Origin: a virus
Length of the DNA stretch: 30,505 nt
Reading direction: 5' to 3' (one strand)
IMG/VR virus record: IMGVR_UViG_3300044627_000290
Coordinates: 1-30,505 of that record
Made by a program: the position numbers and the translations under genes. Each line of letters opens with the position of its first letter. The stretch's first letter is position 1. The notes beneath the pieces are model-generated. The model searched no databases and was not told the DNA's origin. It worked only from the letters and a program-made list of their open reading frames with translations. Shown in pieces: positions 1 through 24,146 of the stretch.

Positions 1-1319
1 TTACTATTTGCATCTTTTCCTAAGAACTGACCATTTGCATTTAAGTCTACTGCAAGACCTTTATTATGGAATGATCCTCCCGGAGGAGCTACCCATTTTC
101 TTGCTTTCTCTGGAGAACCATATTTCTTAAGAGCTTGTTGCCAAAGCTTCTCTTGTTTCTCATATGATCTATATCCTGAACCAACTCCTAAGTCTACTCC
201 TTGTGCTCTAGCATCTAAAATCATTTGAGTAAGTCTCTGTGAGAAATCAGCTGTTAAACCTTGAGTACCACTAACAGAACCTCCGTCATCTTTTCTAATA
301 AGATTACCTACAGAGTGTCCATAACTAGCTTTAGTTAATGAAGGTACAGAAATATCTTCTACTATGTATCCACCTCTTCTGTATTCTTCTATCTCACTAT
401 CATCAAGTTCTACATCCATGAATCCACCTTCTTGTCTAAATCCAATACCTCCAGGTCTACCTCTTGTTTGACTTAAATACTCAGCTTCTCCTTCCATTGT
501 ATTTGCATCTTCATACATAAGAGGTTCAACTGCTCTATCATACTTTATTTGATCTGGTATGAATCTATCAAGATCTTCTGTCCAAATATTACCTGTCATT
601 TCAGGATAAATGTTTTTTAGATTACTTATATACTGGTCTACTTCATCACCCTTTCTTGTATAGTATGATGCTGCTTGTTCATCTGATGCGACAATTGGAG
701 GTCTTTGTTGTGGAAGATTGGGATTACTTCTTAATCTTCCAGTTCTATTTTGCCAAGCATGAACTAACTCATGATTAAGTTCAGCATCATTTGCATTAGG
801 ATTTAAATTAATTGTATCTGATAATGGATCATAATATGATCTACCATCTTCTGGTAAATAAGCTATACCTACATTTTGTGGTAAATCAATTTCTCCTCCT
901 GGTTGAAAATATGGAGAGTATGGATCATAGATCTTATTCTTTGCAGACTTTATTTTTTTAAGTAAAGGGTTCTTTGAAAACAATCTATTCTTAGCCATCA
1001 GGCTTCTTGAATATTTCTTAGATGGTTTTTTACTTCCTCCCTTCTTTGCTTGTGGTATTTCATATACCATGTCTCCCTCAAACTGATATTCATTACCAGG
1101 AGTCATGTATTGTGTGTTACCTAAGTTATCTATACCTAGTAGATCATCTTCTACTCCTTCCATAGTTATTCTACCACTAGGTGTTGGTACTGCTGTAGGT
1201 TGTCCAGGATAATCCCATTGTCCTCTCTCAGAAATAATAAACCCATTAGTAAATTTTTTTAATTCATTGGGTCCTCCTGGCAAACCTAAAGTTTCATAGT
1301 CTTCAAAAAAATCTTCCAT
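1..1319 (-). CDS. Virion-associated or lytic protein with HExxH protease motif and M15 peptidase domain (partial)
   Basis: The reading frame opens at an ATG that overlaps the stop of the muzzle-like gene (TAATG) and runs off the left edge, giving 439 residues without a stop. Two zinc-peptidase signatures are visible. The first is HELVHAWQ, with H183, E184 and H187; E226 in a DEVDQY context is a candidate third ligand, and an EGEAEY stretch follows. The second is an M15/VanY-type D-Ala-D-Ala carboxypeptidase pattern: SGYRS from residue 381, then SFHNKGLAVD with H418 and D425. The final active-site part of M15 (a later xxH) lies beyond the window. A basic AKKGGSKK segment and an RRGG segment separate the domains. 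In the family, M15 enzymes cut peptidoglycan cross-links. I infer a tail-end or cargo protein that opens the cell wall during entry, or a lysis enzyme. The HExxH domain could instead process virion proteins. Confidence 0.8.
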   Translation of the reverse strand, partial: MEDFFEDYETLGLPGGPNELKKFTNGFIISERGQWDYPGQPTAVPTPSGRITMEGVEDDLLGIDNLGNTQYMTPGNEYQFEGDMVYEIPQAKKGGSKKPSKKYSRSLMAKNRLFSKNPLLKKIKSAKNKIYDPYSPYFQPGGEIDLPQNVGIAYLPEDGRSYYDPLSDTINLNPNANDAELNHELVHAWQNRTGRLRSNPNLPQQRPPIVASDEQAASYYTRKGDEVDQYISNLKNIYPEMTGNIWTEDLDRFIPDQIKYDRAVEPLMYEDANTMEGEAEYLSQTRGRPGGIGFRQEGGFMDVELDDSEIEEYRRGGYIVEDISVPSLTKASYGHSVGNLIRKDDGGSVSGTQGLTADFSQRLTQMILDARAQGVDLGVGSGYRSYEKQEKLWQQALKKYGSPEKARKWVAPPGGSFHNKGLAVDLNANGQFLGKDANS

Positions 1320-4300: not shown

Positions 4301-6838
4301 TCCTGGAACAGGAGAAGGTCCACCAGCATTTGGTGCAAACACTGATCCTAATTGACCACCTAAATCAAAGTAATCATCTAAATCTTGTTTGTATGCTTGG
4401 TATATTAAATTTGCTTGTTGCACATTTAAAGGTGCCAGATCAAAACTAACACCAGTTGTATTATTACCAGCTATAACTGGAGCTTTTTGATAAGGAACTT
4501 GAAAATCTGGTATTGCTGGAAATTGAGTTTGTTGCTTACCTAATAGATTTAAAAATGCATTTCCTAAACCAACAAGAACTGATAAGTAGAATGCTTCATT
4601 ACTCATCAACTGATTCTCAGGATGTTTATTTGGAATACTAAACTGATGAACACCATTACCTTCTAAACTTCCATAAATCTTTAACTCAGTTTGGTTTAAG
4701 AATGGATTTCTAAAACTCGTATCTGGAGATGTAAATGAAAGTAAGTTTCTAGGTATATTTTGATTTACAAAAGTTTCTTGACCTTGACTGTTTATGTTTA
4801 TAGTTTTAATAAATGGATCATTATATCTATAATCATGATCTGCAGGATTAAGTGTATTACCTAAAGGTATAGTGCAGTTAAATGGATAGTTAGCATAAAG
4901 ACCCTTTCTATTTCCTTTTGACTGACCTTGTATCTGGTAATCTCTAAAGTTATTAATCATACCTTTAGCTATGATACTTTGGTTACCTTCTCTTGATCCT
5001 CTTAGAATTTCATAACCTACTACTCCAGGTATTGGATTTCCATCATTATCTTTTGGATATATAATTCCTTGGAATCTAACACCCATAATTCTAATGTATT
5101 TTTTTCCATCAGATGGGTTTACTGCAAAGTTAGCATTATCAACTCTAAAGTGATATGTCTCAGGTGACAAAGCATTATCAGGAAACTTATGATGTCTTAT
5201 GGGTTTACCACATAAATCAAAATTTGGATTAGTAGTTCCAGTCCAACATTGTGAACTTGAATTCCATACTTCAGGTTGGTTAGGTGGATAAAGTTCAGAA
5301 GATTCCCAATATCCCATTTTTCCAAATGCTAAAACTTTTCCACCATCAGGTAATATTGGATTGTTACCTACATATGTACCAGTTTGAGTTGCTGTATTAT
5401 ATGTTTGAAATAACATTGTATCATCTGCAAAACTATTTGGATCTAAATATGGAGCATTCTGTCCATATGGTGCATCATCCAATAATGTTTGTGTACTTCC
5501 ATTGGGGGCAATAAACGTATATGGTTCTGCTGGTCTTCCAGGTATATGATAAGAAGCAGATTTATCTCCTGTGTTATATACCCATCTAATAAAGAATGAA
5601 TATACTTCATCTCTAAGGTATCCAGTCTTTGATCCACCTTTAATGTAATAGTCTTCAGGATACTCTACAGTCTCCCAATAAGTTTCAATTAAGTTTGCTA
5701 ATGGTTGATAGTTAAAATCAAATTTAGACTTTGGAGCTATTCTTAATAAGTACTGACCAACATTAACCATTTGGTCAGAAGTTTCATATACGGGATTTTG
5801 CAAAATAACATTTCCTACTGGAACAGTCTCAAGTGATAGTGCTATATCATCTAATACTATAACAGACTGAGAAGTTGAATAGTAACCAATTTTCCTTGCT
5901 ATAACATTTTCATTTATTGATGCTACTATAACAAGCTCAAACTGATCAAAGTTATCAGTATCTAAATCTAGTTTAACTTGTAATGATCCTTGAGATAAAT
6001 TTCTTTCAGTATATACTGGTTGTAAATTACTTGGAGAAAAATAGTTTGTTACTTTTTGTGTTTTAATTGTATAAGCAACAACTGCAAAGTAAGTTCCATT
6101 CTCAAGCGTACCTGTTCCTGGGGCAATTGATAACTCTACACAAGGTGTTTTTACAAGTGATGCTAATCTTATTTTATCACAGTCAAGTTGATTTATATCA
6201 TTACAAATTATACATGGTCCTGCTGTACACTTTTGTTCCCAAGCTGTAATAGGCCAAAGAGATTGAGCACCTGTGCCATCTAAATAATGATTATAATTAG
6301 ATCCAGCAATAGCAGCATTTGATCCTCCCCATGTTAATACTGGATCTGGCCAAGTTTTTGGATCACCAATGTTTAAATATCTATCTACATTTAAACCATC
6401 AGCCCAATATACTTCCCAAGAACAATCACCATTTTGTTTTGATGCACCTGTAATTAAATTATACTTGCTAAAGTTTAAACAGACACCAGATACTATAGGT
6501 CTATATCTACAGAAGTCTTCTTCATATAAACCTATTTCTGAGTTTACATTTTTACCATTAACATATGCCACAGTAAAAACTGCCCATTTGTCAGCAAACA
6601 AATGTATTAATCCAATAATGTGTTTTTCTCCCTGCATGGTCTCACCACTGGTACCACAGAGATAATTTGAATCTTCATTAGATAATGTACCTAACTTACC
6701 TTCATCTGTATTATTGACCATGTTTCTTGCATGCGTCCACAAACCAGAATCTACAAATGAAGGGTCAGTATCTTTATTAAGACCTTTTGAGAAACTATTG
6801 GTAACTATTTGACTAGTGTTTTGAATTTCCTTACCCAT
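1319..6838 (-). CDS. crAss-like tail stabilization / muzzle-type protein
   Basis: An 1839-residue protein, the largest in the window. The N-terminal stretch has the pattern I associate with the crAss-like tail 'stabilization' protein: SFSKGLNKDTDPSFVDSGLW, then ARNMVNN and GTLSNEDSN at about residues 38-57. In crAss-like virions this family forms the distal part of the short tail (the 'muzzle'). The rest is Asn/Tyr/Pro-rich and mainly beta-like, with no signal peptide or membrane segment. It is joined to both neighbours by TAATG overlaps: the ring candidate upstream and the metallopeptidase downstream. This places it in the tail assembly unit. The many short frames on both strands inside it have no support. 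The family call is from memory of the N-terminal pattern; the length and position fit. Confidence 0.78.
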   Translation of the reverse strand: MGKEIQNTSQIVTNSFSKGLNKDTDPSFVDSGLWTHARNMVNNTDEGKLGTLSNEDSNYLCGTSGETMQGEKHIIGLIHLFADKWAVFTVAYVNGKNVNSEIGLYEEDFCRYRPIVSGVCLNFSKYNLITGASKQNGDCSWEVYWADGLNVDRYLNIGDPKTWPDPVLTWGGSNAAIAGSNYNHYLDGTGAQSLWPITAWEQKCTAGPCIICNDINQLDCDKIRLASLVKTPCVELSIAPGTGTLENGTYFAVVAYTIKTQKVTNYFSPSNLQPVYTERNLSQGSLQVKLDLDTDNFDQFELVIVASINENVIARKIGYYSTSQSVIVLDDIALSLETVPVGNVILQNPVYETSDQMVNVGQYLLRIAPKSKFDFNYQPLANLIETYWETVEYPEDYYIKGGSKTGYLRDEVYSFFIRWVYNTGDKSASYHIPGRPAEPYTFIAPNGSTQTLLDDAPYGQNAPYLDPNSFADDTMLFQTYNTATQTGTYVGNNPILPDGGKVLAFGKMGYWESSELYPPNQPEVWNSSSQCWTGTTNPNFDLCGKPIRHHKFPDNALSPETYHFRVDNANFAVNPSDGKKYIRIMGVRFQGIIYPKDNDGNPIPGVVGYEILRGSREGNQSIIAKGMINNFRDYQIQGQSKGNRKGLYANYPFNCTIPLGNTLNPADHDYRYNDPFIKTININSQGQETFVNQNIPRNLLSFTSPDTSFRNPFLNQTELKIYGSLEGNGVHQFSIPNKHPENQLMSNEAFYLSVLVGLGNAFLNLLGKQQTQFPAIPDFQVPYQKAPVIAGNNTTGVSFDLAPLNVQQANLIYQAYKQDLDDYFDLGGQLGSVFAPNAGGPSPVPGILPANPTLQQIFEFYSDKFNDAGLYTTPTLLYEQTAASVLQNIPGAPTFLYPSVMIPYYFSEGFNTTIRVIQAFLPFRQYALQSLAHGFYARFVPPVRSLLQRFSLEEGFYLTDSNQEVPDFLDGTGAFQRYSINNLNRTKTAFLRTAAPNNLNPLTAPIEGPNLIGTYAGGVIVPGNQEDNSLINLGKAVATSSFGMSFDNETRFNSFLSNIASHYVGLKYNVQNQYGQLESIKQVVATSCEVRFDPNNVYDPATNPGGDVSIVTTSSFCNTQTPNPIQVKHTVLLPTQTIFGGDTYINRFTEKNTMLFFYNWLYNLPDGTPWNYALYNNIPTARYWMNTQPYSKDENPLAGGVLSVISTIQSLITAQPTFGTGPMPIDYYNLDNDAYRRSDDNEIGGPLGYDGFLSIKNSYFYLANSGVRDFFVESNVLVDFRSQGTFQYQQPYIPYQYTDMRELFDMDPEVITKGNFYNYDYSLSVTKFFTQYISAGSLQGINYNPYVADLCFTYYPNRSLYSLYQDDQSYENNWLIYLPLNYVQFRDRITTVKPTGMTGMIFTFPTTGPLFYQGIDQLTTNLGKKVTIGDGGLFSTPPQSSSNADPSFEYGSSQNIRSVIYAPAGLYYVSMNQGKIFSYGEGLKEISQNGLKWWFNLFLPYKLTDDFPDFPYIDNPVAGIGVQAMYDNKDSILYFTKKDYKLKSGLGKISYNSDKNTFNYLGVNYPLGDPAIFDNASWTVSYDPKMNVFLSYHDWHPDLAFSAKSNVFTVKGNTIWKHNNSCDDFCNFYGTQYPFEIEYPIVTGQSPTVVKSFEYILEAYRYSQFNCVDQFHVLDANFNQAVVSNTEQVSGYLNLNIFPKNNITLSLDYPKLNQSNLASFDILFSKEENKYRFNQFWDITKDRGEFPIGSDYPPTGPLVPGTTQLLGNYSDQVIWNTQPNGYIKTLNANNLNYAKPELQRKRFRHYLNYLFLSKLATQEERDINFILKIVNSKNQASLR

Positions 6839-7890
6839 TATATAATTCTATTACCAGTTACATTTCTATAATAACCTGCATTAGGTGAATAACTTTCAAA
6901 CATATTGTAGTACTTACCATACATGGCTTTTCTATTTGTCCACCACATTTGCTCTAGCTCTCTAAAGTTTGGAGTATTAACTACACTCAATGCATTGTTT
7001 CTTGCAGCCTTAAGTCTTTGTTCTACAAGTTGCATTCTCTGTGCTACATCCTCACCATTTAAATATAAGTTTTCAAAGATTCTAGCTTTCAAGGCATACT
7101 CATAGTATTCATTTAAAAGATCATGATCTGGAACCATTAGGTTTCCATTATCATCTTCCATCTGTCCTTGATAGTTTAAGTATACTCTTCCTGTTTCAAA
7201 TGTGGTAAATAAAAATCCTCCTTTAATCCATCCTTGGTTTGCAGCATTCCAGTAAAGATTTGGACAGTCACATTCTATCTCTTGACTTGCTTTCATTCTT
7301 AATGGAAGGAGATCTCTGTATACTCTAGTAGTATATGCACCAGAATTATTCATTACTTGAACAAGTTCCCATTTTTCTCCTTTACAGTTCATGAATACTC
7401 TTGGAGCAATACATGTATTACCATAAGGATTATTAGGATCATACTCTGTAGGTATTGGATCTACTATAGGAAAGTTAAGATCACAGGCTGCAGTTTGATT
7501 GCATGGATTAGAATTACATGTTCTGCAGTTTACCGTTGCAGGAGCACATACATCTACAGTAGATGGTACTTCTTGATAAGGAACTTCCATAATATGTGTT
7601 CCTGATGCCATTGGTCCATAACCAACATGTTGCTCATAGTTACCGCAAACAAATGCAAAGTTAAATACATAAAAGTCATCCGGTAGTTTTACTCTACCAT
7701 GACATACTTCTAATATAACTTCCTTAGTTTGATTTACTCTTAAACCAAGATCATAGTTTATTTTTTTAGTCAGCTTTATAAGCTGCTGAGGCTCTATCAT
7801 ATTTTCTAGAGCAAATGTATTTAGGTCAACTGTTACATCTTCTAACAATTGATCAAATGTTCTATATCTAAGAGTATAATTAAAATCCAT
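6838..7890 (-). CDS. Predicted neck/ring structural protein with Cys cluster
   Basis: A 350-residue soluble protein between two tail genes, with TAATG overlaps at both ends. It begins MDFNYTLRYRTFDQLLEDV, followed by a helical region and the segment KEVILEVCHGRVKLPDDFYV at about residues 56-75, a pattern I recall from crAss-like ring proteins that sit between portal and tail. Residues 115-136 hold five cysteines (115, 122, 125, 130, 136), including a CxxC, so an inserted metal- or disulfide-stabilised loop is likely. The C-terminal third is helical and charged and ends in a Tyr/Asn-rich tail. Structural role in the neck is inferred from context and this weak family resemblance. A tail hub component is the main alternative. 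Confidence 0.6.
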   Translation of the reverse strand: MDFNYTLRYRTFDQLLEDVTVDLNTFALENMIEPQQLIKLTKKINYDLGLRVNQTKEVILEVCHGRVKLPDDFYVFNFAFVCGNYEQHVGYGPMASGTHIMEVPYQEVPSTVDVCAPATVNCRTCNSNPCNQTAACDLNFPIVDPIPTEYDPNNPYGNTCIAPRVFMNCKGEKWELVQVMNNSGAYTTRVYRDLLPLRMKASQEIECDCPNLYWNAANQGWIKGGFLFTTFETGRVYLNYQGQMEDDNGNLMVPDHDLLNEYYEYALKARIFENLYLNGEDVAQRMQLVEQRLKAARNNALSVVNTPNFRELEQMWWTNRKAMYGKYYNMFESYSPNAGYYRNVTGNRII

Positions 7891-8555
7891 TATCTAAGAG
7901 AGTTTTGACTATCATCTGCATCATCAGCAGGAACCTGCATAGACATAGATAGTTCTTTGATTACAAATTGTTCTACTTCAGAAAATAAATATTCTGGAAT
8001 GGTTAATGGTTTATCTTGAGCTATTTCACATTCTTGTTTAGGATCACATGGATCTGTAACTCCTTGGAATATAGCTTCCATTCTTACAGCATCCCAATCA
8101 ATGTTAGGTGCATATAAGTAACCATTAAGATACCAGAAATATTTTCTTGTGTTATATTTAAATGTTGTTGTTCTAACCATAGAAACCCAAGTACCCGGAT
8201 CTGTTCTAAACATTTCTATGCTACCATCTATTGAAGATGTAGTACGTATAATAGGGCCAAATGTTCCTTCAAGAATTGTTGGAAGTTTATCTTTAGATCT
8301 TTTAAAATAACATCCTGAGTAAACTCCTACACAACCTGCTTCTACTTTATCTACATCTATAAGTTCAATGTAAGGAAGTACTTGGAAGATAGAACTAATC
8401 TTCATTAATTTAAACTGGTTATCCTCTCTCTTTAAAAGAGTCTGCCCATATTTAATTAATGAGCTATAGATTACTCTATCAGTTAAGAATGGATCTTCCT
8501 TTACTGCTTTTAAAGTATTTCTAACTCTTGATATAGATTCACCAATAGTTGTCAT
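7890..8555 (-). CDS. Predicted ring/head-tail connector protein
   Basis: A 221-residue protein whose stop overlaps the start of the 350-residue gene (TAATG) and whose start overlaps the end of the 193-residue gene by 4 nt (ATGA). The N-terminus (ISRVRNTLKAVKEDPFLTDR) is helical and resembles the opening of crAss-like ring proteins. The middle is beta-rich and aromatic (TTTFKYNTRKYFWYLNGYLY, from about residue 128). A Cys-bearing segment, DPCDPKQEC, lies near residue 168. The acidic C-terminal helix and tail (SMQVPADDADDSQNSLR) may be flexible. No catalytic motif is seen. The tight coupling to the two neighbouring tail genes supports a stoichiometric virion component of the neck; this is inference, with moderate certainty. 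Confidence 0.6.
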   Translation of the reverse strand: MTTIGESISRVRNTLKAVKEDPFLTDRVIYSSLIKYGQTLLKREDNQFKLMKISSIFQVLPYIELIDVDKVEAGCVGVYSGCYFKRSKDKLPTILEGTFGPIIRTTSSIDGSIEMFRTDPGTWVSMVRTTTFKYNTRKYFWYLNGYLYAPNIDWDAVRMEAIFQGVTDPCDPKQECEIAQDKPLTIPEYLFSEVEQFVIKELSMSMQVPADDADDSQNSLR

Positions 8556-13917: not shown

Positions 13918-15591
13918 TTAGATTCCACACTGAGCTGGAAGCGCAGGGAAAGCAACTGAAGAACAAGTAGATTTACAGTCATACTCACCAACCTCACAAA
14001 CTGAACAAGCAGCTTGAGATAACCATGCTTTAACAGCATTCCAGAAAGTAGTTCCTGCAGTAGCATCTGTAAAGATAACTTCTAACAAGTATTGATCATT
14101 ATCAAATGTACTAGATGGATTATTAAATCTAGGAACACTGTGTAAGATATGTACTTTGTAATATAATGCTTGTCTGTCAATAGCATTTACAATTTGGTTA
14201 CCTTGAGTAATCTCCCGGATTCTGAAATCAGAAGAGAAGAAGTTTTGTCTGTAAGACTCAGAAAGGATCATCTCTCTAAGTACAGTTTCTCCAAGACCCA
14301 TTGCTTGAGATCCTAAACACTCATTAACTACACAAAGACCAGTAAATTCACATGGATCACCATTATAATCTACTTCACTTACATATAAGTTAACTGGTTG
14401 TTTCTCATAGAAGTCAGAAATTTGGAATGTACAATCTCCAAATCTAGTATCTACATAAGCACCATTAAGGATTAAACCTGCACATTTGTTAGCAACGTGT
14501 CCTGTAGATACATATTTATCCCAAGTACTAGCACCTTCAGCAGCTAAGAAAGTAGCATTTGTTCCTGGAGCATACCAAATAACGCCATTCTCATCTTGAA
14601 TAGCAATCTGAATAAATGGAGATACAATTGGTGATCTTAATAAATCATTAGCCCAAAGGATCATTACTTCAGTAGAATCTACTGGAGTTGGAGCAATAGT
14701 TCCTGGAAGACAACATCCTGTATAAGCAGTTGCAGTATAGTATGCATTGTGATTTAAGAATCTTAATGCTGGAGAACCTTTAACATCTAAACGAAGATTA
14801 TAAGTCTCACCACATAAGAACTCTTTACAACAATCTGTTCCAGGGATAACTGTAGGTTTTGCAGGAGTAACACTATTAATAGTATATACGCAAGGTGTTG
14901 TTACAGGAAGAGTAGTATCACCATTATTTATATTTACTGTATCACCAACTTTATAACCTTTACCAAGACTTGCAATACCAACTACAGTTGGTACATTACC
15001 AGCACTAATATTAATAAATAAAGTTAAACCAGTACCTGTACCAGTAACTGTAGTTGTTCCAACTACAATATTAGTTGAAGGAGCTGGATCATAACCAGTA
15101 CCACCTACAGCAGTACCAGTCAAAACACCACCACCTAAACTTGAATAAGTAGAACCTACGTGTACTACATTATTAGATGGTTGACATGGATCAACATCAT
15201 AAATAGTATTTACATATTTAGGATTAACAATTTTAGATTTGTTAGTCTCTTGGTATCCACCTAAGAAAGGACTGATTTTGTCTTTACAATAGATAGTAGA
15301 ACCTGCAAGGTAAAGTGGGCAACATCCAGTTGAACCACCAACAGCAACTGATAAATTATCTTTAGGATCAAACCAACCAACATATCCACCAAAGTATTCA
15401 CCATTTGCGGTAATACCAGTTGCAGAAAGTTGATTAAGACCATAAGTTGGTACACTAGGAGTATTTAAATATCCATAACTAGTACTTACACCTGTAATAG
15501 TAGAACCATCAGGTTTAGTAATAGTTTGACTACTTAAATTTTTTCCTGTAGCAAGGAAAGCTTTTTGAAAAGCATGATTAAAATAAGCCAT
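13918..15591 (-). CDS. Probable abundant virion protein with inserted beta domain
   Basis: A 557-residue protein opening MAYFNHAFQKAFLATGKN, which resembles the start of a conserved crAss-like structural protein that I believe is a capsid-associated or other abundant virion component. Residues 1-155 and 250-557 look like one body: CCPLYLAGSTIYCKDKISPF at 90-109, CGETYNLRLDVKGSPALRFL at 260-279, EVMILWANDLLRSPIVSPF further on, and a Cys-rich C-terminus. Between them, residues about 158-245 form a Gly/Thr/Val-rich insert containing GGTGYDPAP, TGTGTGLTLFINI and LGKGYKVGDTVNI, the plan of a beta domain often inserted in phage surface proteins. It has its own AT-rich upstream region and a terminator immediately downstream, consistent with a high-expression single-gene unit. 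A head fibre or decoration protein is my preferred guess; a tail role cannot be excluded. Confidence 0.65.
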   Translation of the reverse strand: MAYFNHAFQKAFLATGKNLSSQTITKPDGSTITGVSTSYGYLNTPSVPTYGLNQLSATGITANGEYFGGYVGWFDPKDNLSVAVGGSTGCCPLYLAGSTIYCKDKISPFLGGYQETNKSKIVNPKYVNTIYDVDPCQPSNNVVHVGSTYSSLGGGVLTGTAVGGTGYDPAPSTNIVVGTTTVTGTGTGLTLFINISAGNVPTVVGIASLGKGYKVGDTVNINNGDTTLPVTTPCVYTINSVTPAKPTVIPGTDCCKEFLCGETYNLRLDVKGSPALRFLNHNAYYTATAYTGCCLPGTIAPTPVDSTEVMILWANDLLRSPIVSPFIQIAIQDENGVIWYAPGTNATFLAAEGASTWDKYVSTGHVANKCAGLILNGAYVDTRFGDCTFQISDFYEKQPVNLYVSEVDYNGDPCEFTGLCVVNECLGSQAMGLGETVLREMILSESYRQNFFSSDFRIREITQGNQIVNAIDRQALYYKVHILHSVPRFNNPSSTFDNDQYLLEVIFTDATAGTTFWNAVKAWLSQAACSVCEVGEYDCKSTCSSVAFPALPAQCGI

Positions 15592-15653: not shown

Positions 15654-16112
15654 TTATTTTAAGAAAAGTAATTTGTACTTTCCAGAGTTAATAGTATCTT
15701 TTACAGTATCTAATGAATTTACAATTTCTGAGTAAGGCATCTTAGCTTGTAATGCATTTATCATTTGATACATATCTCTTAGATAAGCAATACCTTCTTC
15801 AACTGTATTTAAAGTTCTTGGAGCAGCTTCTTTGTAGTCAAGAAGTTTTTCTGCAGCACCTTGGTATCCTTCAGCAAGATCATCTGCATGACCAGGTAGT
15901 GCATCATATAATTCATTCAATGCTTTGTGTGCAGCATATGATCCTGTTCCTTTTACTTTTAAGTGAAGTTTGTGAATACTAGTTGCAGCATTCATTAATT
16001 CTGACACACAAGCTGCAGTCATTGTATCACAATTAGCTGATCCAGTACTTGGGGCACTTGTATAAGATGCTGATGTCATTGCATCTCTTTTTAACATTCT
16101 AGGTTTTTCCAT
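15654..16112 (-). CDS. Dps/ferritin-like protein (DUF5856-type)
   Basis: A 152-residue helical protein. After a Ser/Thr-rich N-terminal tail (residues 1-36) it follows the pattern of helices A and B of Dps proteins: HKLHLKVKGTGSYAAH at 47-62, then LNELYDALPGHADDLAEG at 65-82. H50, H62, D77 and E81 have spacings 12, 15 and 4, exactly those of the ferroxidase ligands of canonical Dps (H31, H43, D58, E62 in the Listeria protein). The position equivalent to D47 is N66. Dps proteins oxidise and store iron, form 12-mers and often shield DNA. I recall a phage family named DUF5856 with this character. It lies between a neck gene and an abundant virion protein, so it may be packaged, or may protect DNA during infection. 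It is shorter in the C-terminal half than most Dps (about 160-170 residues). Confidence 0.75.
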   Translation of the reverse strand: MEKPRMLKRDAMTSASYTSAPSTGSANCDTMTAACVSELMNAATSIHKLHLKVKGTGSYAAHKALNELYDALPGHADDLAEGYQGAAEKLLDYKEAAPRTLNTVEEGIAYLRDMYQMINALQAKMPYSEIVNSLDTVKDTINSGKYKLLFLK

Positions 16113-16115
16113 TTT

Positions 16116-16817
16116 TTAGTTGTTGCGTTCTGCAGTATCAGTACCTCTAGAGAATTGGTTTCCAGACTCAATATCTCCAGCAATAATACTTACTGCTTCA
16201 TCTATTATTAATTCTATTATATCATCTTTAAACTCACATGTAACATTTACAGGAGATTGTAGAGTAGTGTAAGGGTCTACACAACCTTGGATTTCAATCT
16301 TTCTAGGTTGTCTGTAGTAAGTTAAATCAACCTCTGGTACATTAAACTCTCCATTAGTATAGATGTTAATTGTATCATCTATAAGAGTAGCAAATGTTTC
16401 TGCCCATTCAAAGCTTGGCTTCTTTAACTTGTCTCTAAGTAATATAGATACATTACCTTCTTCAGCAAGATAGATGACCATTCTTCTTTTATCACAGCAA
16501 TCTCTTTGAGCATATACATCTACTCTTTTCCACTGTAAATAATTCTGAGGAATATTTAAAAAAGAATAATCTCCCTTATCAGTTAAATTAGTTATAGTAG
16601 TTTTATTAAGAAGAACTTGCATGTCATCCTTTCTTCTGGTTGATCCTTCATCACCCTCTTTAGTTAGGTTAATACCATGCAACTGTCTTCTAGACCACTC
16701 TACTTGGGCTTTATTAAATGCCTCAACTATCTGCCAACATTCTAAGTTGTCATAGTCTTGGCTATCTAATTTATTTAGCCGTTGTTTAATCTTTACAGTT
16801 ATAGTACTATTTAACAT
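16116..16817 (-). CDS. Predicted ring/neck (head-tail connector) protein
   Basis: A 233-residue protein with a helical N-terminus: VKIKQRLNKLDSQDYDNLEC, then WQIVEAFNKAQVEWSRRQLH at about residues 28-47. The central part is beta-rich (SFLNIPQNYLQWKRVDVYAQ), followed by INIYTNGEFNVPEVDLTYYR and a helical C-terminus with IIELIIDEAVSIIAGDI. This layout matches head-completion or adaptor proteins that bind the portal in short-tailed phages, and the N-terminal pattern is one I recall from crAss-like ring proteins. It lies 3 nt after the last Lys-rich gene and 3 nt before the Dps-like gene. Role inferred from family resemblance and context; which ring it forms is unknown. Confidence 0.68.
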   Translation of the reverse strand: MLNSTITVKIKQRLNKLDSQDYDNLECWQIVEAFNKAQVEWSRRQLHGINLTKEGDEGSTRRKDDMQVLLNKTTITNLTDKGDYSFLNIPQNYLQWKRVDVYAQRDCCDKRRMVIYLAEEGNVSILLRDKLKKPSFEWAETFATLIDDTINIYTNGEFNVPEVDLTYYRQPRKIEIQGCVDPYTTLQSPVNVTCEFKDDIIELIIDEAVSIIAGDIESGNQFSRGTDTAERNN

Positions 16818-16820
16818 TTC

Positions 16821-17354
16821 TTATTTTCTTTTTACAGAGCCACCTTTCTTTTGGTATCCCATTTTATTTCTAACCGGTGTTGGTAATTTAGAAAGACCTA
16901 CCTTATCAGAAGGAACTGGTTTAAGTGATCCACCTTTAGACATTTTTTTTACAGATCCACCTTTTTTACTCTTGCTCATTTGAAAAGCCTTATATTCATC
17001 ATATGCTCCTTGTGGGGAAGTTGGTTTTGAAATTTGAACACCAGGTGTTGGGATAGTTATATTTTTTAGTCTTTCTACTGCTTGGTTGTTACGTTCTTCC
17101 AAATCTGCCTTTTTATAAGCCTCCTCCATCAGTTTACGTGTATTAGCAAGTCCAGTATTATATACGTTATTGCTCATATTAATTTTATTAGCACTATCAC
17201 TAGCAGCAGAAGTAACTTGACTACCTGTTACATCTCCTTGAAATCTTTTTAATGATTTTTTGTAATTAGCTAATTGCCCATTACCCTTTTTAACAGCCTC
17301 AGCTTTAAGATTATTAAAGTGAGTAAGCGGATTTACTTTTTTATTATGTTTCAT
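16821..17354 (-). CDS. Lys-rich protein with three KKGGS-type motifs
   Basis: A 177-residue basic protein, probably largely disordered. The N-terminal 110 residues are helix-prone and Lys/Asn/Ala-rich. The C-terminal part holds SKKGGSVKKMSKGGSLKPVP and ends in YQKKGGSVKRK, so the [K]KGGS motif occurs three times, once at the very C-terminus. There is no enzyme motif, signal or membrane segment. It is the last of ten consecutive small basic genes and is followed 3 nt later by the neck gene. Such proteins could neutralise and condense packaged DNA or be ejected with it; this is inference from composition and position. Confidence 0.65.
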   Translation of the reverse strand: MKHNKKVNPLTHFNNLKAEAVKKGNGQLANYKKSLKRFQGDVTGSQVTSAASDSANKINMSNNVYNTGLANTRKLMEEAYKKADLEERNNQAVERLKNITIPTPGVQISKPTSPQGAYDEYKAFQMSKSKKGGSVKKMSKGGSLKPVPSDKVGLSKLPTPVRNKMGYQKKGGSVKRK

Positions 17355-17356
17355 GA

Positions 17357-17722
17357 TTATCTATTTTTAGCAATTTTCTTTAATGTAATAGCAAGAGCTT
17401 TTCTTTTAGGAGTACAAGTAGGTTTAGTCATTGGAGTACAATATCCTTTGTGTGCAGGATTAATTGCCTTTTGAATCCACTTCTTATCAGTTGATCCTCC
17501 TTTTTTATATGGGTTTACTTTTGTATCTCTAGATGATCTAGATATTACATCTCCTTTTTTATTAGTTCTTGTTTTTTCAATGTGCTTTCCACCACCGGGC
17601 ATTTTAAAAACTTCCTTAGATATTTTACTACCCAGTAAACCAGATCTTGTAATAAGTTTTCCCTGAACTTCTTTACCATCAAATTCTTTAGATATTGATG
17701 ATACTTTTCTAAGTTTAGCCAT
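17357..17722 (-). CDS. Small basic protein with C-terminal KGYCTPMT...KRKAL motif
   Basis: A 121-residue basic protein. Residues 1-75 are beta/turn-like (EFDGKEVQGKLITRSGLLGS), with a YKKGGSTDKKW junction near residue 72. The end carries KWIQKAINPAHKGYCTPMT, PTCTPKRKALAITLKKIAK and a basic tail. I recognise the last 40 residues as a short module that recurs in phages and large DNA viruses (WIQKAI-x-P, a CTP pair and RKALAxTLKK), of unknown function. Start at ATG 17722; the stop is 2 nt before the next gene. The KKGG motif links it to its neighbours, and the terminal module has the same look as the C-terminus of the 90-residue protein at 18460-18732. Confidence 0.65.
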   Translation of the reverse strand: MAKLRKVSSISKEFDGKEVQGKLITRSGLLGSKISKEVFKMPGGGKHIEKTRTNKKGDVISRSSRDTKVNPYKKGGSTDKKWIQKAINPAHKGYCTPMTKPTCTPKRKALAITLKKIAKNR

Positions 17723-17726
17723 GACC

Positions 17727-17765
17727 TTACTTTTTTACTTTACCTTTATTTCTACAGCTACACAT
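17727..17765 (-). CDS. Possible 12-residue mini-ORF
   Basis: Between two Lys-rich genes the minus strand holds an ATG followed by 12 codons, MCSCRNKGKVKK, then TAA. Its composition (CxC followed by Lys) matches the start of other small Cys/Lys proteins here. It may be a remnant of a longer gene, a leader peptide for the downstream 121-residue gene, or chance. It occupies most of the 49-nt gap in an otherwise tightly packed block. Confidence 0.25.
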   Translation of the reverse strand: MCSCRNKGKVKK

Positions 17766-17771
17766 GATTAA

Positions 17772-18443
17772 TTATTTTTTAGTAGTTCTTGACTTCATTA
17801 CTTGACCATGAGTTTTACCCTTGTTAGGCCCCATAGTATATTTCTTAGTCTTTGGATCAAAACCATACCATTTGCTTGTAGATGATCTTCCTTCAGAGTC
17901 TTTCTTATAACCCATCTTATCATAACCAGCTTTACCTTTGTTATATTGTCTTTCTAAATTTGCATTATTTACAATTACTTTATCAAAGTTCTTATCATTA
18001 ATGCTCATATTAGACATTTCTGCAGATTTTTTTCTGTAATAGTTTGCGCTATCTCTTGCTGCTGTTGAGGTAAAAAGTTTATTGTATGCTGGTGAATTAA
18101 TTCCAGGTTCTTTATAACCTTTTTCTTTAGTAAATTTATCTCTATTACTTTCTTTAGTAGGTCTATCCCCACCAGTAGAAATACCTTTCTGAGCTTTAAC
18201 TAATTTTCTAACAGCACCACCTTTCTTCATGGTATTAATACCTTGAATGTTTGGTCCTGTAGGTCCTGCATTAGGAACACCATAGATTCCCATTTTAGTA
18301 TTACCACCACCTTTCATAGGTTTAGTAGGTGCTTTAGGAGCATTTAGTTTATTAGTAGCTGACCCACCCATGGCCATCTTTTTTACTTTTTTGATTGTGC
18401 CTCCAGATTTCATCTTACCACAACCCATTTTACAAGTCTTCAT
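17772..18443 (-). CDS. Lys/Gly-rich protein with KKGG and VKAQKGIS motifs
   Basis: A 223-residue basic protein. The N-terminus, MKTCKMGCGKMKSGGTIKKV, carries a small Cys pair and an SGG motif. A low-complexity stretch with MAMGGS, PMKGGGNTK and YGVPNAGPTGPN follows, then MKKGGAVRKLVKAQKGISTG at about residues 72-91. After this the protein becomes more ordered: SANYYRKKSAEMSNMSIND in the middle and a Lys-rich C-terminus with KWYGFDPKTKKYTMGPNKG. KLVKAQ-x-GI(S/T) is shared with the 180-residue protein at 19230-19772. I do not recognise an enzymatic family. Membership of the basic block and shared motifs point to a common role with its neighbours, perhaps in packaged DNA or virion interior. Confidence 0.62.
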   Translation of the reverse strand: MKTCKMGCGKMKSGGTIKKVKKMAMGGSATNKLNAPKAPTKPMKGGGNTKMGIYGVPNAGPTGPNIQGINTMKKGGAVRKLVKAQKGISTGGDRPTKESNRDKFTKEKGYKEPGINSPAYNKLFTSTAARDSANYYRKKSAEMSNMSINDKNFDKVIVNNANLERQYNKGKAGYDKMGYKKDSEGRSSTSKWYGFDPKTKKYTMGPNKGKTHGQVMKSRTTKK

Positions 18444-18459
18444 AATTATATATAATAAA

Positions 18460-18732
18460 TTAACAATTCCACTTTCTTAAAGAAAGAGCTTTTCTAGTTG
18501 GTCTTCCTTTTTCATCTTTCATTGGCCCTGGCATTCCAGACATTCTAGCACAAAAACTTTTACGTCTTTTAGCATCCTTGCTTCCAGCTTTTAGTTTTGA
18601 TGGTTTAGTAGTTACAGCTGTCTGAAGTTTACTTCCTGGATTAGCTGCTCTATAACTAGCCACACCTTTAGCATTAAGACCTCCTGTTGGGTTCTTACCT
18701 TCTTTTCTTTGCCATGCTGGTGACTTTGCCAT
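18460..18732 (-). CDS. DUF6321-like small basic phage protein
   Basis: A 90-residue protein whose whole length fits a family I recognise from many aquatic phages (DUF6321-like): SPAWQRKEGKNPTGGLNAKG at residues 4-23, KRRKSFCARMSGMPGPMKDE at about 56-75, and GRPTRKALSLRKWNC at the C-terminus. Function is unknown. The single Cys near residue 62 and the terminal Cys are typical. It is basic and very likely soluble. It starts inside the upstream gene with a 38-nt overlap, the longest in the window, so the MAKSPAWQRKEG start also encodes the KKRR tail of the 96-residue protein in another frame. The start is well supported because the family motif begins immediately after it. Confidence 0.78.
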   Translation of the reverse strand: MAKSPAWQRKEGKNPTGGLNAKGVASYRAANPGSKLQTAVTTKPSKLKAGSKDAKRRKSFCARMSGMPGPMKDEKGRPTRKALSLRKWNC

Positions 18733-18985
18733 TTCCTTTTCCTTTATATTTATAATCAGGGTTGTCCTTATGCCATTTCTTTGTAGCAGCTACACCCTGC
18801 GCAACTGTCTTGGCTCTACCTTTTGCAGTAAGATCTATTGTATCCCACTGACCTTTATCTTTGGTAGGATGGTTAACCATTATATTGCCAACCTTTCCTT
18901 CACCTTTTTTTGTAGTCTTTTTATAGACTACATGTTTTTCTCCACCGGCAGTAACTTTTACTTTCTTTGTTTTTGCCTGTGCCAT
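18695..18985 (-). CDS. Small basic protein with HPTKDKGQWDTIDL motif
   Basis: A 96-residue basic protein. A Lys/Thr-rich N-terminus (residues 1-27, including VTAGGEKHVVYKK) is followed by GNIMVNHPTKDKGQWDTIDL and TAKGRAKTVAQGVAATKKWH at about residues 33-73, then a Gly/Lys tail ending MAKKRR. I recall the HPTKDKG-x-WDTIDLT pattern from small proteins of crAss-like and aquatic phages, without known function. It overlaps the next gene by 38 nt and is preceded 2 nt upstream by the 80-residue gene. Disordered ends around a compact core are likely. Confidence 0.65.
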   Translation of the reverse strand: MAQAKTKKVKVTAGGEKHVVYKKTTKKGEGKVGNIMVNHPTKDKGQWDTIDLTAKGRAKTVAQGVAATKKWHKDNPDYKYKGKGNGKVTSMAKKRR

Positions 18986-18987
18986 GA

Positions 18988-19230
18988 TTAAAACTTTTTA
19001 CCAGCAGCAATGCTGTTAAATTCTTTTGCTTTTTCAGCAGCAAGTCTTTTTACATCATTCATGAGTTTAGCATTCTTCTGAATCTCAGCAGCTCTTTGTA
19101 ATGTAGACATAGCAGATTCAATTTCCCACTTTCTCATGTCTGCTTTGCTACCACCTAAAATAGAAATACCAACTGAAGAAGATTTCTTAGCTGGTGTTGA
19201 TTTTCTAGTTGTTGTTTTTCTAATTGCCAT
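18988..19230 (-). CDS. Small basic helical protein
   Basis: An 80-residue protein. Residues 1-25 are Lys/Arg/Thr/Ser-rich and probably disordered (KTTTRKSTPAKKSSSV). Residues 29-75 form one or two long helices (KADMRKWEIESAMSTLQRAA, then NAKLMNDVKRLAAEKAKEF). The tail ends AAGKKF. The helical segment resembles one I have seen in small proteins of other crAss-like phages. The N-terminal tail plus helices is reminiscent of histone-like layouts, but no known DNA-binding signature is present. The start overlaps the stop of the 180-residue gene (TAATG). Confidence 0.6.
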   Translation of the reverse strand: MAIRKTTTRKSTPAKKSSSVGISILGGSKADMRKWEIESAMSTLQRAAEIQKNAKLMNDVKRLAAEKAKEFNSIAAGKKF

Positions 19231-19772
19231 TATTTTCTTTTTTTAGTTTTTACAACTCCACCTCTTTTTTGTTTACTAAAAATAGGACCTGGTTTAGAAT
19301 AGTTACTTGTTCCAAAATAAGTACCATCACCTCCTGGTGCAAAACCTTTTTCTCTTTTAAATCTATTAACTTCTTTATTTTTATCAATTGCCTTACTATA
19401 GGTAGCCTCAGCTTTATCATATAAAGCATCGGCTTTTGCTTTATTTGAATTAACAACTTTTTGGGATCTTTGTAATTGATTAACAGCTTTTCTATTAGTT
19501 ATATTTCTATCAATTCTTTTTCCAGCTAAAGAAACTTTATCAGAAAAAGATGGTTTAGTAGAAGATGATGTGCTTGTAGATGGTTTAGAAGTTTTTGGTT
19601 GCATTTCTTCATCATACTTATCTTTTAATTTTTTCCATCTATTCAAATTTGTATTAGGATTAGCCATTTTTTTTGCAATCCTATCTGCTTTGTTAGATCT
19701 AGCTGGTACAGTAATACCACTTTGTGCTTTAACTAATTTTTTAACTGGTTTCTTAGCTTTCATCTTATACAT
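19230..19772 (-). CDS. Lys-rich protein with VKAQSGIT motif and KRGG C-terminus
   Basis: A 180-residue basic protein. It opens MYKMKAKKPVKKLVKAQSGI, sharing KLVKAQ-x-GI with the 223-residue protein at 17772-18443. A helix-prone charged region follows (DRIAKKMANPNTNLNRWKKL), then a Ser/Thr/Lys linker (STSSSTKPSFS), a second helical region (residues about 95-140), and a Gly-rich end with FAPGGDGTYFG closing in KRGGVVKTKKRK. There are no catalytic motifs. Its start lies 8 nt inside the DUF5872-like gene and its stop overlaps the next ATG, so the three genes are coupled. Function unknown; probably part of the same set of virion-interior or DNA-binding proteins. Confidence 0.62.
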   Translation of the reverse strand: MYKMKAKKPVKKLVKAQSGITVPARSNKADRIAKKMANPNTNLNRWKKLKDKYDEEMQPKTSKPSTSTSSSTKPSFSDKVSLAGKRIDRNITNRKAVNQLQRSQKVVNSNKAKADALYDKAEATYSKAIDKNKEVNRFKREKGFAPGGDGTYFGTSNYSKPGPIFSKQKRGGVVKTKKRK

Positions 19773-20103
19773 TTTTAATTCTTCTTCCCATTCCTACTCT
19801 AGACTTCTCTGCCTTTTTAGCAGCTAGTTTAGAAGGAGTTAGTTCATACTTTGTTTTTGGTGTATCTTTAGATACTCTTTTTGTAGGCCGGCAGTATTCA
19901 TTTTTACCACCGGCACCACAAGCTTTTCCTGATTTAGTATCCTGCCACTTTTCTGCTTGCCATCTTTTTAGCTCTGTACCCTTCTCAGTCTTTCTTACTT
20001 GACCTTTACCTTTACGGCATTTGGCAATAGCTTGAGAAGCCCTTGCTGAAGGGAACACGGCATACCGTGCTTTTACACTATGATAGCAAGAATCCTTTGG
20101 CAT
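19765..20103 (-). CDS. DUF5872-like protein
   Basis: A 112-residue protein that matches a family I recognise from phages and giant viruses (DUF5872-like). Visible elements are CYHSVKARYAVFPSARASQA at residues 6-25, IAKCRKGKG, RWQAEKWQDTKSGKACG, and KNEYCRPTKRVSKDTPKTKY at about 66-85. The conserved cysteines (C6, C29, C62, C71) could bind zinc. The family's function is unknown. A basic C-terminal tail (KLAAKKAEKSRVGMGRRIKN) is typical of this gene block. It starts at an ATG that overlaps the stop of the 57-residue gene (TAATG) and overlaps the next gene by 8 nt. Confidence 0.75.
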   Translation of the reverse strand: MPKDSCYHSVKARYAVFPSARASQAIAKCRKGKGQVRKTEKGTELKRWQAEKWQDTKSGKACGAGGKNEYCRPTKRVSKDTPKTKYELTPSKLAAKKAEKSRVGMGRRIKNV

Positions 20104-20276
20104 TATGGGTTTGCTTTTTTAGGAGCTTTAGATACACCACCTGAACGTCCTTTAGCTACTTTAGATGCAGAGACTTTAGAGTTAACTCCAGACTTTGTAC
20201 CTTTTGTACCAGCAGATTTTAATGCAGAAACTTTATTGTTTAAACCAACATAAGTTCCAGTTTTTGTCTTTTTCAT
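20103..20276 (-). CDS. 57-residue Lys/Ser/Gly-rich protein
   Basis: A short gene between the DUF5872-like and 372-residue genes. Translation gives MKKTKTGTYVGLNNKVSALK followed by SAGTKGTKSGVNSKVSASKV and a KGRSGGVSKAPKKANP end. LNNKVSALKS and VNSKVSASKV look like two copies of a short unit (N-x-K-V-S-A-x-K). It contains an SGGVSK variant of the GG motif shared by its neighbours. No known family. Coding is supported by the TAATG overlap with the next gene, the in-frame basic composition matching all neighbours, and the lack of any other explanation for 190 nt in a packed region. Confidence 0.65.
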   Translation of the reverse strand: MKKTKTGTYVGLNNKVSALKSAGTKGTKSGVNSKVSASKVAKGRSGGVSKAPKKANP

Positions 20277-20296
20277 TTTATTTAATTTTATATAAA

Positions 20297-21415
20297 TTAT
20301 TTTTTTCTTTTAACAGCAATCTTCTTACGCATCTTCTTAACTGAACCTCCTCTTCTAAATCCTTGTTCTTCAAATTCCATATCTGCTCTTTCCATTGCAC
20401 CGATTCCTGATCCAGCATATGGAGTAGGTTTAGGTGTAGGAGAAGGTGTAGGAGTTGTTGTAACTGGAGTTGGAGTAGTCTCAGTTTTTGGCTTTGACAA
20501 ACTACTTTTACTTATTTCACCAGACTTTAACTTCTTCATCAAAGCAATATTAGAACTTGCTGAACCATCAGTTAATCCTTGCTTTTTAGCTTCAGACCAA
20601 CTAGTACCAGTTTTTTGTTGCCACAACTGTGATACAGTTGGTTCAGATTTTTTTGGAGGCGTTACAACAACTTCAGGAATAGTTACTTTCTTTCTAATCT
20701 CTGGTCTTTTTAAAGATTCAATTTTAGATTTTACTTTTTTAGATTGTCCTTTTTTAAAATCTTCAGTTTTTTTAATTAATTTTTTTACTCCAACTTCAGT
20801 GTTCCAATCAGGATTTTTTTCAAGTTTACCAGTCTTAGTATCTAAATAAAAAGCTTGACCAGTTCTTGTCATCTTGTTAAGAAGATCTTTGTTAATAGGA
20901 GCTGGTTTTTTAACTTCAGGTTTTTTAGTAACCACCTTTTTAGTTTCTACTTTTTTGACAGTAGCTTTAGGTTTTTGAACCGGAGCTACTTTTTTAGTAG
21001 GTGCAGCTGGTTTAGTTTTAACGCTATAATAATCTGCAGGCCTTGCACCAGTAGCTACATCAAGAAAACTATTACCTGTTACTTTAGGTTTACTAGGTGT
21101 AGTTTGTTTTTTAGTTTCTACTTTTTTAACTACTTTCTTTTTATCTGAAGTTTTAGATGCCATGCCATATGGCTTTTTCTTAGAATCAGAAGGTTTATTA
21201 ACTACTGGTTTTCCATATTGATCTTTAACTGTTGTATCATATAAAGATGGTCCAGATTTTTTATTTTCAACCTTTTTCTTAGGTTCCACCTTTTTCTTAG
21301 ATGCATCAGCTTTAGGTTTTGCTTTTACATTTACTTTTGGCATACTAAAACCTTTATAAGAATTTAGTTGGCTTAATATATAAGCATTTCCGGCATTAGA
21401 TTTTTTTTTGGCCAT
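20297..21415 (-). CDS. Lys/Pro-rich low-complexity protein with C-terminal RRGGSVKK
   Basis: A 372-residue protein, extremely Lys/Pro/Thr/Val-rich, with KPKATVKKVETKKVVTKKPE, VEPKKKVENKKSG and a PTPVTTTPTPSPTPKPTP linker near residue 315. Short repeats of K-K-V-x-T/P-K-K-x recur throughout. More ordered patches are MTRTGQAFYLDTKTGKLEKN at about 195-214 and VSQLWQQKTGTSWSEAKKQG at about 260-280. The end is GFRRGGSVKKMRKKIAVKRK. The length and composition resemble histone H1-like or linker proteins, with a compact module on flexible basic arms. No signal or membrane segment. It opens the block of ten small basic genes after the 341-residue gene. A DNA-condensing or ejected cargo protein is my preferred reading; nothing here proves it. 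Confidence 0.6.
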   Translation of the reverse strand: MAKKKSNAGNAYILSQLNSYKGFSMPKVNVKAKPKADASKKKVEPKKKVENKKSGPSLYDTTVKDQYGKPVVNKPSDSKKKPYGMASKTSDKKKVVKKVETKKQTTPSKPKVTGNSFLDVATGARPADYYSVKTKPAAPTKKVAPVQKPKATVKKVETKKVVTKKPEVKKPAPINKDLLNKMTRTGQAFYLDTKTGKLEKNPDWNTEVGVKKLIKKTEDFKKGQSKKVKSKIESLKRPEIRKKVTIPEVVVTPPKKSEPTVSQLWQQKTGTSWSEAKKQGLTDGSASSNIALMKKLKSGEISKSSLSKPKTETTPTPVTTTPTPSPTPKPTPYAGSGIGAMERADMEFEEQGFRRGGSVKKMRKKIAVKRKK

Positions 21416-22526: not shown

Positions 22527-24146
22527 TTATAGAGAGCCTCCAGTGATTGGGTTTCTCATAACAATTTTCAAGACTTTAGTTGGATCTTTAACCCAAATAG
22601 CTGGCATTGTTTGAGACATCATCACACGGTACCCGTTGAATTGTCCAGAAGACTGGAACCCTTGAGTTCTACCCATGTAGTCCATAGTACCATTTTGATA
22701 CCACCACTTCAATTGGTTATCCCAAGAAAGTTTCAACATAAAGATGTTATCATTAGTGTTATCTGTGATATCAAAGATAATAAAGCTGTAAGAAGATAAT
22801 GGGAAACCATCAATGATTGGGTTCTCAATATCATTTGTATGAACATTGTCAAATGCTGGGTTAAGAACAAACTTAACATTTGCCAAGAATGGAATTACAT
22901 ATGAAGTATAAGCAAATCCAAAGTTCAAGTCCATACCTTTACCAGTGATAGCACCTATATCAGCAGCCTGAATTAACAAACCTGAAGAGATAGCTTCTTG
23001 CTTAATGGCCTCATTAACCATACGCATACCACCCATACCAGTTTGTACAATAAGAGATCTTTTTGGATCTGGTCCTTGGAACTCAACCTTACCATTGAAG
23101 AAGTTATAGATTTCTCCACGGAATAAGTCAAGAGTAAAGTTATTTTTGTTGTATACTCTTTTGAACGCATTGTTCAATTGTTGCCAAAGTCCAACAGATA
23201 ATCTGATATCATCTGGACCATCTTGCTTAACTTTACCTCCTTGTCCCCACATTAAGTAAGTCTCAATGTCAGTTGCAATTTTAGAAAGGTGAGCTGCTTC
23301 CATGTTTGTCAAGAAAGTTCTAGACAAATCTCCGTTATCAAATGCTTTCTTAACAGCATCTTTACCCATAACTTTAACCATATCCTCTAAAGATGTGATT
23401 GATGGGTCTAAAGTGTTTTTATCAAATGTTCTCCAGATCTCAGTTACAGGAACTGTACCATCTGCATTCATACCACCTTTGATCATTAAGTCTGCTCTAG
23501 AAGAGATAGAATAATGTACGTGAGCTTCTGCACCACCAACAAAGTTATAGTATTCACGGAAACCTGCTTGAGTGATGATATCAGAGAATCTCTCACCATA
23601 CTCACCTCTTGCAGAACCTTTTCTGAATAATCTTGTACCATTAGCCAAATACTTGTTATCCAAATATTTAGTGTTGTCATTGTTTACAAGTTGAACAGTA
23701 TAGACAAAACCATCACCTAATGGAAAGATATCCTCATCTGTAATATACATTTCCACACCATTGTATTTGTCATAAGTGATGATATCACCATGTCCAAACT
23801 CTCTGCGGCTAATTTTAATTTTGAAGGTTGTACCATCAACACCTTTAAAAGCATTTAGTGGTTCAATATCTTCAATTACATATGGAAGATCTGTAGAGAC
23901 TGGAGTCTGCCACTTGTACTCTCCACGAGCATTGTCAACCATAATTACATTTTTGCCACCAAAGCTAGAAAGCTGGTAAAGCGGCATTTCTACTTTCTGA
24001 GCCATAGCCCATAAATCAACTGGACCTAAATCCATAGGTTCAGCATCTTTTAACATATTCACTAAGTGATAAGAGTCTACATGCGATGAAGCTTGGTAGG
24101 CTGTATCTCTTAGGAATATCCCATTGTTTAAAATTGGAGTTGCCAT
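22527..24146 (-). CDS. Major capsid protein
   Basis: A 539-residue protein whose N-terminus (NNGIFLRDTAYQASSHVDSY, residues 7-26) and position (after scaffold and portal, before a strong terminator) match the crAss-like major capsid protein, which has an HK97 fold. Further conserved-looking segments are MVDNARGEYKWQTPVSTDLP at about 70-89, then GAEAHVHYSISSRADLMIKG and TKVLKIVMRNPITGGSL at the end. There is no sign of N-terminal processing that I can identify. The own terminator and A-rich leader (AAACAAATATAAAA) suit very high expression. The product forms the icosahedral shell. The fold itself cannot be seen from sequence; family resemblance and synteny carry the call. Confidence 0.85.
   Translation of the reverse strand: MATPILNNGIFLRDTAYQASSHVDSYHLVNMLKDAEPMDLGPVDLWAMAQKVEMPLYQLSSFGGKNVIMVDNARGEYKWQTPVSTDLPYVIEDIEPLNAFKGVDGTTFKIKISRREFGHGDIITYDKYNGVEMYITDEDIFPLGDGFVYTVQLVNNDNTKYLDNKYLANGTRLFRKGSARGEYGERFSDIITQAGFREYYNFVGGAEAHVHYSISSRADLMIKGGMNADGTVPVTEIWRTFDKNTLDPSITSLEDMVKVMGKDAVKKAFDNGDLSRTFLTNMEAAHLSKIATDIETYLMWGQGGKVKQDGPDDIRLSVGLWQQLNNAFKRVYNKNNFTLDLFRGEIYNFFNGKVEFQGPDPKRSLIVQTGMGGMRMVNEAIKQEAISSGLLIQAADIGAITGKGMDLNFGFAYTSYVIPFLANVKFVLNPAFDNVHTNDIENPIIDGFPLSSYSFIIFDITDNTNDNIFMLKLSWDNQLKWWYQNGTMDYMGRTQGFQSSGQFNGYRVMMSQTMPAIWVKDPTKVLKIVMRNPITGGSL

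Follow-up and report, generated by a model that had tools for sequence, protein, structure and literature searches.

What does a gene for a Dps-like mini-ferritin do among the tail and capsid genes of a phage? The question is raised by positions 15654-16112 of the viral DNA analysed here (IMG/VR virus record IMGVR_UViG_3300044627_000290, positions 1 to 30,505), a stretch of 30,505 nucleotides that we call the window. The answer towards which we lean, if only slightly, is that the gene specifies a late-made mini-ferritin of Dps type, belonging to the family DUF5856, which would be built into the virion of a crass-like phage or carried by it.

The reading frame

The gene is read from the minus strand, a point left unstated in a preliminary description of this DNA; the plus-strand reading was rejected, as it contains many stops. 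It encodes 152 amino acids and opens with an ATG 3 nt past the stop of the gene upstream. There is no Shine-Dalgarno sequence and the leader is A-rich (AACAACTAAAAAATG). Leaders of this style are frequent in Bacteroidota, and here the leader hints at the host group only. Comparison with eight relatives gives dN/dS values of 0.05-0.21, meaning that the gene is under purifying selection.

Eight longer relatives were available. Each of the seven records of 115-122 kb has one copy of the gene, while in the 136-kb record there are two, close to opposite ends. A search of these eight for a second, canonical ferritin gene gave nothing above the family cut-off. Bacterial relatives were sought in genome contigs, where 30 pattern matches yielded none.

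Genomic context

The gene directly upstream (16116-16817, minus strand) encodes a protein of 233 aa that we assign to the crAss-type R3/R4 tail ring proteins. Searches with the neighbouring proteins against PDB sequences gave no useful match, and the assignment comes from structure comparison, in which the 233-aa protein matched 7qoj_D of the phiCrAss001 tail barrel (E 1.1e-12, TM 0.72); CrAss_Ring_3_4 is also matched by 7 of its 34 relatives. Two further ring proteins are encoded on the minus strand, tail ring protein 2 (CrAss_Ring_2, 221 aa, 7890-8555; PF25702, 2.6e-21) and tail ring protein 1 (CrAss_Ring_1, 350 aa, 6838-7890; PF24228, 4.1e-10). The same strand carries the gene for a crAss-like major capsid protein (22527-24146; phrog_11589, 3.4e-31), which is 28% identical to that of Leptolyngbya phage Lbo-JY46 and more weakly similar to those of crAss-like phages. 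A terminase is also encoded within the window. With ring proteins and major capsid protein together, the window corresponds to the virion gene cluster of a phage of Crassvirales type, and the placement of the mini-ferritin gene in such a cluster, as first proposed, holds.

What was said of its immediate neighbours needs revision. The "neck protein" on one side is the tail-barrel ring protein just described. The "abundant virion protein" on the other side is a 557-aa product (13918-15591, minus strand) without a Pfam or PHROG match, and that name for it is unsupported. The order of the three genes is conserved: the mini-ferritin gene follows directly behind the ring gene in 103 of 103 related loci, and the 557-aa gene comes next in all 100 that extend that far. 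Lbo-JY46 has the ring protein and lacks the mini-ferritin at the corresponding place.

Two other features of the window deserve mention in their own right. Nine small and very basic proteins, with 20-28% Lys+Arg, are encoded in a run that separates the capsid genes from the ring gene (16821-21415, minus strand). Five of the nine contain a basic motif with GG-[SATV] (KKGGSVKK type), which occurs 9 times, where shuffles of the nine proteins lead one to expect about 1.1 in all. These could be internal proteins that neutralise DNA, or the motif could be a common processing or targeting tag. At the other end a minus-strand gene that runs off the window (3-1319) encodes a 439-aa protein with a VanY D-Ala-D-Ala carboxypeptidase domain (PF02557, 1.2e-16), an HExxH-like stretch (ELNHELVHAWQ) and a KKGGSKK resembling that of the basic proteins.

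Family and fold

The 152-aa protein matches Pfam DUF5856 (PF19174) with 57.2 bits against a cut-off of 34.6 (3.7e-15), as do all 65 of its aligned relatives at E<=0.01. Ferritin (PF00210) remains under its cut-off (17.7 against 24.5 bits) and is matched by 10 of the 65 relatives at the same E value, the best at 3.7e-5; the Dps equivalog cut-off is not reached either (16.1 against 114). Profile searches, which had been suggested as a check, thus place the protein in DUF5856, with matches to Dps/HP-NAP profiles besides. Among PDB sequences the best match is HP-NAP (E 5e-4 for the sequence alone, 5e-6 with a profile). There is also a match to PHROG 858 (2e-21), labelled "starvation-inducible transcriptional regulator". 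This label echoes the annotation of Dps and should not be read as evidence for transcriptional control.

An AlphaFold2 model built with 65 sequences shows a four-helix bundle whose core has a pLDDT of about 97. Helix A covers residues 28-52 (15957-16031, minus strand), helix B residues 58-87 (15852-15941), and helices C and D residues 104-124 and 128-150 (together 15663-15803). The best solved structures found by Foldseek are Dps proteins (probability 1.00, TM 0.61-0.67, E about 1e-3), so that the bundle expected of a Dps relative is what the prediction gives. The short BC helix that lies at the dimer axis in Dps is missing from the model, which has no helix at residues 88-103. Taking profiles and model together, we are close to certain that the product has a Dps-type fold and belongs to DUF5856.

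In front of the bundle is an N-terminal tail (residues 1-27; 16032-16112, minus strand), mostly of low confidence in the model. It starts with the basic MEKPRMLKR and continues as a variable linker, with pLDDT below 50 at residues 9-25. The tail is net positive in all 38 crass-like representatives, and 34 of them have the RMLKR-type motif. None of the other sampled DUF5856 groups has this basic motif.

Matches of the model in BFVD include Dps-like domains inside long proteins of uncultured phages, annotated as prohead protease (333-763 aa), NUDIX hydrolase and ParB/sulfiredoxin. This suggests fusions of the mini-ferritin domain to other phage proteins.

The ligand residues

Central to the original proposal were H50, H62, D77 and E81, said to reproduce the 12-15-4 spacing of the Dps ferroxidase ligands. 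The residues are where they were claimed to be. The pattern H-x11-H-x14-D-x3-E is present at a single place in the protein; among 200,000 shuffles that preserve its composition, 38 contain it (p about 2e-4). Residues 34-81 align without a gap to residues 35-82 of the E. coli Dps model PRK09448 (NCBI), which pairs H50, H62, N66, D77 and E81 with H51, H63, D67, D78 and E82; the latter five we take to be the ferroxidase ligands of E. coli Dps. Four of the five are therefore present, and the D67 equivalent is N66, just as described before.

Relatives were gathered from viral contigs and isolate phages and reduced to 74 representatives with less than 85% mutual identity, diverging down to about 25%. 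Seven of the 152 columns are invariant in all 74, namely H47, H50, H62, D77, E81, G85 and D135, a count with some bias towards conservation, since the seed peptides used to find the loci partly overlap the motif region, several of them lying elsewhere. H47 and H50 are in helix A, D135 is in helix D, and the other four are in helix B. The H/H/D/E pattern is thus kept throughout the homologues, and the residues invariant across DUF5856 as a whole are all kept in this protein. A chance origin of the motif was rejected on its rarity in shuffles and its invariance in the representatives.

The fifth position behaves differently: it varies freely among the 74, most of which have N, Q, G or E there. 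The Trp that stands beside the first His in Dps is replaced by Leu. In the PDB alignment HP-NAP carries Glu at the fifth position; it also has H-x2-H. The loss of Asp there therefore need not by itself mean a loss of function. The K-G-x3-Y/F pattern, which had been ascribed to helix A, is present in the turn between helices A and B (53-58) and fails as a family feature: in place of K54 there is often T, and G55 is missing in about a third of the representatives.

Where would these residues meet? H62 is separated from D77 and E81 by 15-19 residues of helix B, or about 22-28 A, and they are at opposite ends of that helix. H50/H62 and D77/E81 are too distant within one subunit, and a single site can form only across subunits. 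By the helix geometry, such a shared site requires helix B of a second subunit to run antiparallel, as in Dps, and the invariance of both pairs throughout the family supports a site of this kind. A metal-binding site between subunits is, on this geometry, likely. Judging by helix level, D135 should be near D77 and E81, and H47 near H50; H47 and D135 may substitute for the missing Asp.

Relatives in the virions of other phages

That the protein is packaged, as the preliminary description also proposed, can be approached through its relatives, several of which occur in the virions of other phages. LIMEstone1 ORF078, a DUF5856 protein of 13,149 Da by sequence (13.15 kDa in the published table), was detected in virions by MS (3 peptides covering 28% of the sequence); a putative late promoter lies upstream of its gene (PMC3296691). 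Its gene belongs to an island, ORF078-085 (L217:1637-5908), of MS-confirmed unknown structural proteins situated away from the main structural region. Sajous1 gp217, called a ferritin by Phyre2, gave 10 spectra in CsCl-purified virions (PMC10892097), and from this call and the matching gene order it is probably a DUF5856 protein. Dps-domain proteins have likewise been found with the virions of SU10 (CDS67; PMC4281155) and Privateer (PMC7881722). For phiR1-37 g280 the sole support for virion status is the GenBank note "phage structural protein"; the 2026 paper contains no discussion of the protein. The text of the phiCrAss001 virion atlas contains neither "Dps" nor "ferritin", and the papers on that phage name no Dps in their text.

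Gene placement varies within the family. In two types of podovirus (L112:4273-6423, L083, L211) the DUF5856 gene comes immediately past the gene for the portal or head-tail connector, which is an independent case of placement in a virion cluster. In T4-like and several other phages it is found among early or metabolic, non-structural genes, so the family is not tied to the virion module. Weighing these relatives, we think it rather probable that the mini-ferritin is a virion component in the source phage too.

What might the protein do?

Several suggestions can be made, and three of them differ from the one we prefer. The protein could be a late mini-ferritin of the cytoplasm, transcribed with the tail genes, that sequesters iron and protects replicated DNA before packaging while staying outside the particle. 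Proposals of this kind have been published for phage Dps proteins (PMC8008677, PMC6669764), and the members in T4-like and other phages that lie outside virion modules would agree with it. Since a Dps cage may co-purify with virions, MS alone is no proof of packaging. Yet MS of purified virions has found such proteins in several unrelated phages, and the gene invariably adjoins a tail ring gene in the related loci and, as a separate occurrence, portal genes in other phages. We regard a purely cytoplasmic role as unlikely.

A second suggestion is structural reuse. If a ferritin-like bundle had been fixed as a part in head-tail or tail assembly, its metal site might be structural (e.g. zinc) and not redox-active. 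The adjoining ring or portal genes would then be expected, the conserved MEKPRMLKR tail could dock to a partner, and the replacement of both the fifth Dps ligand and the Trp beside the first His would be in keeping. Lbo-JY46, however, has the ring protein and no mini-ferritin at the corresponding place. Moreover, identical invariant residues are found in phages whose tails are unrelated, and a common chemistry would explain this better than a common role in docking. Such reuse seems to us quite improbable.

Finally, a "Ferrojan horse", in which iron held in the tail exploits the iron-uptake receptors of the host, has been proposed for Vi01-like phages from gp217, but it is very improbable here, as those phages infect TonB- and FeoB-deficient hosts about as well as the wild type (PMC10892097; a result that bears on an entry role only) and nothing in our results puts the mini-ferritin at the tail tip.

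We return to a mini-ferritin that is built into the virion or carried by it. Invariant metal-binding residues, together with relatives in purified particles, make it probable that a protein for handling iron travels with the DNA of this phage. The protein would be expressed late, from the tail and capsid gene cluster. Its subunits would pair as in Dps, with H50 and H62 of one (and H47 nearby) meeting D77 and E81 of the other. Fe(II), or some other divalent metal, might bind at the site so formed and be oxidised there by peroxide or oxygen, and Fenton-active iron would thereby be kept off DNA that is packaged or has just been injected. For the conserved basic N-terminal tail, the expected binding partner would be DNA or a component of the virion. 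That iron oxidation and DNA protection are the main job is a tentative reading, to which we give a little less than an even chance. The full combination, in which the protein is cargo of the crass-like virion or a component of its tail barrel and its redox-active iron site protects the genome in storage and during entry, we consider doubtful.

What it would mean

Phage Dps proteins are already known (PMC8008677, PMC6669764), and some of them are already known to be virion-associated. In the open-licence papers searched we found none that names DUF5856. What appears to be new is that this family is linked to an invariant site of Dps type, to proteomic detection in the virions of unrelated phages and to an unvarying position within the tail cluster of crass-like phages. 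Dps-like proteins of virions have so far been reported singly, usually as an "unknown structural protein" or a "starvation-inducible transcriptional regulator". Grouped in a single family whose metal site is invariant and whose members occur in virions, they lead to a testable claim, that the particles of some phages contain an iron-oxidising protein as well as DNA, and DUF5856 would gain a fold and a likely chemistry. If a redox-active iron site is indeed packaged, DUF5856 as a whole would form a phage lineage within the Dps superfamily, with a rebuilt site between subunits in which H47 and D135 replace the lost Asp.

Comparison with known systems

The mini-ferritin resembles E. coli Dps and H. 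pylori NAP in its fold and in the spacing of its ligands. It differs from Dps in the Asn at the D67 position, in the Leu for Trp after the first His and, in the model, by having no BC helix.

Among other phages, the Kuravirus-type SU10 (CDS67) and Privateer also have a Dps-domain protein, in their case found with purified virions. The DNA-binding protein of SU10 is a structure match to the mini-ferritin at 12% identity; its Dps-domain gene is located among middle genes, whereas ours is in the tail cluster. The DpsA-like protein of the gut crassvirus cr106_1, annotated by similarity to phiCrAss001, is Dps-like and has E-x2-Q-G after the last ligand, as here. It keeps the canonical His-Trp, its His-His spacing is shorter than that of the mini-ferritin, and its gene is beside tRNA genes upstream of the terminase, outside the tail cluster.

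Within its own family, DUF5856 / PHROG 858, the mini-ferritin stands beside LIMEstone1 ORF078, phiR1-37 g280 and the T4-like rI.-1 (MobD.6). All members, the mini-ferritin included, have in common H-x2-H, a further H, D-x3-E, G and the Asp of helix D. T4-like members lie among non-structural genes; the LIMEstone1 and phiR1-37 proteins are recorded as virion proteins. Unlike all of these, the crass-like branch has a basic N-terminal tail with a linker and a fixed position behind the tail ring gene.
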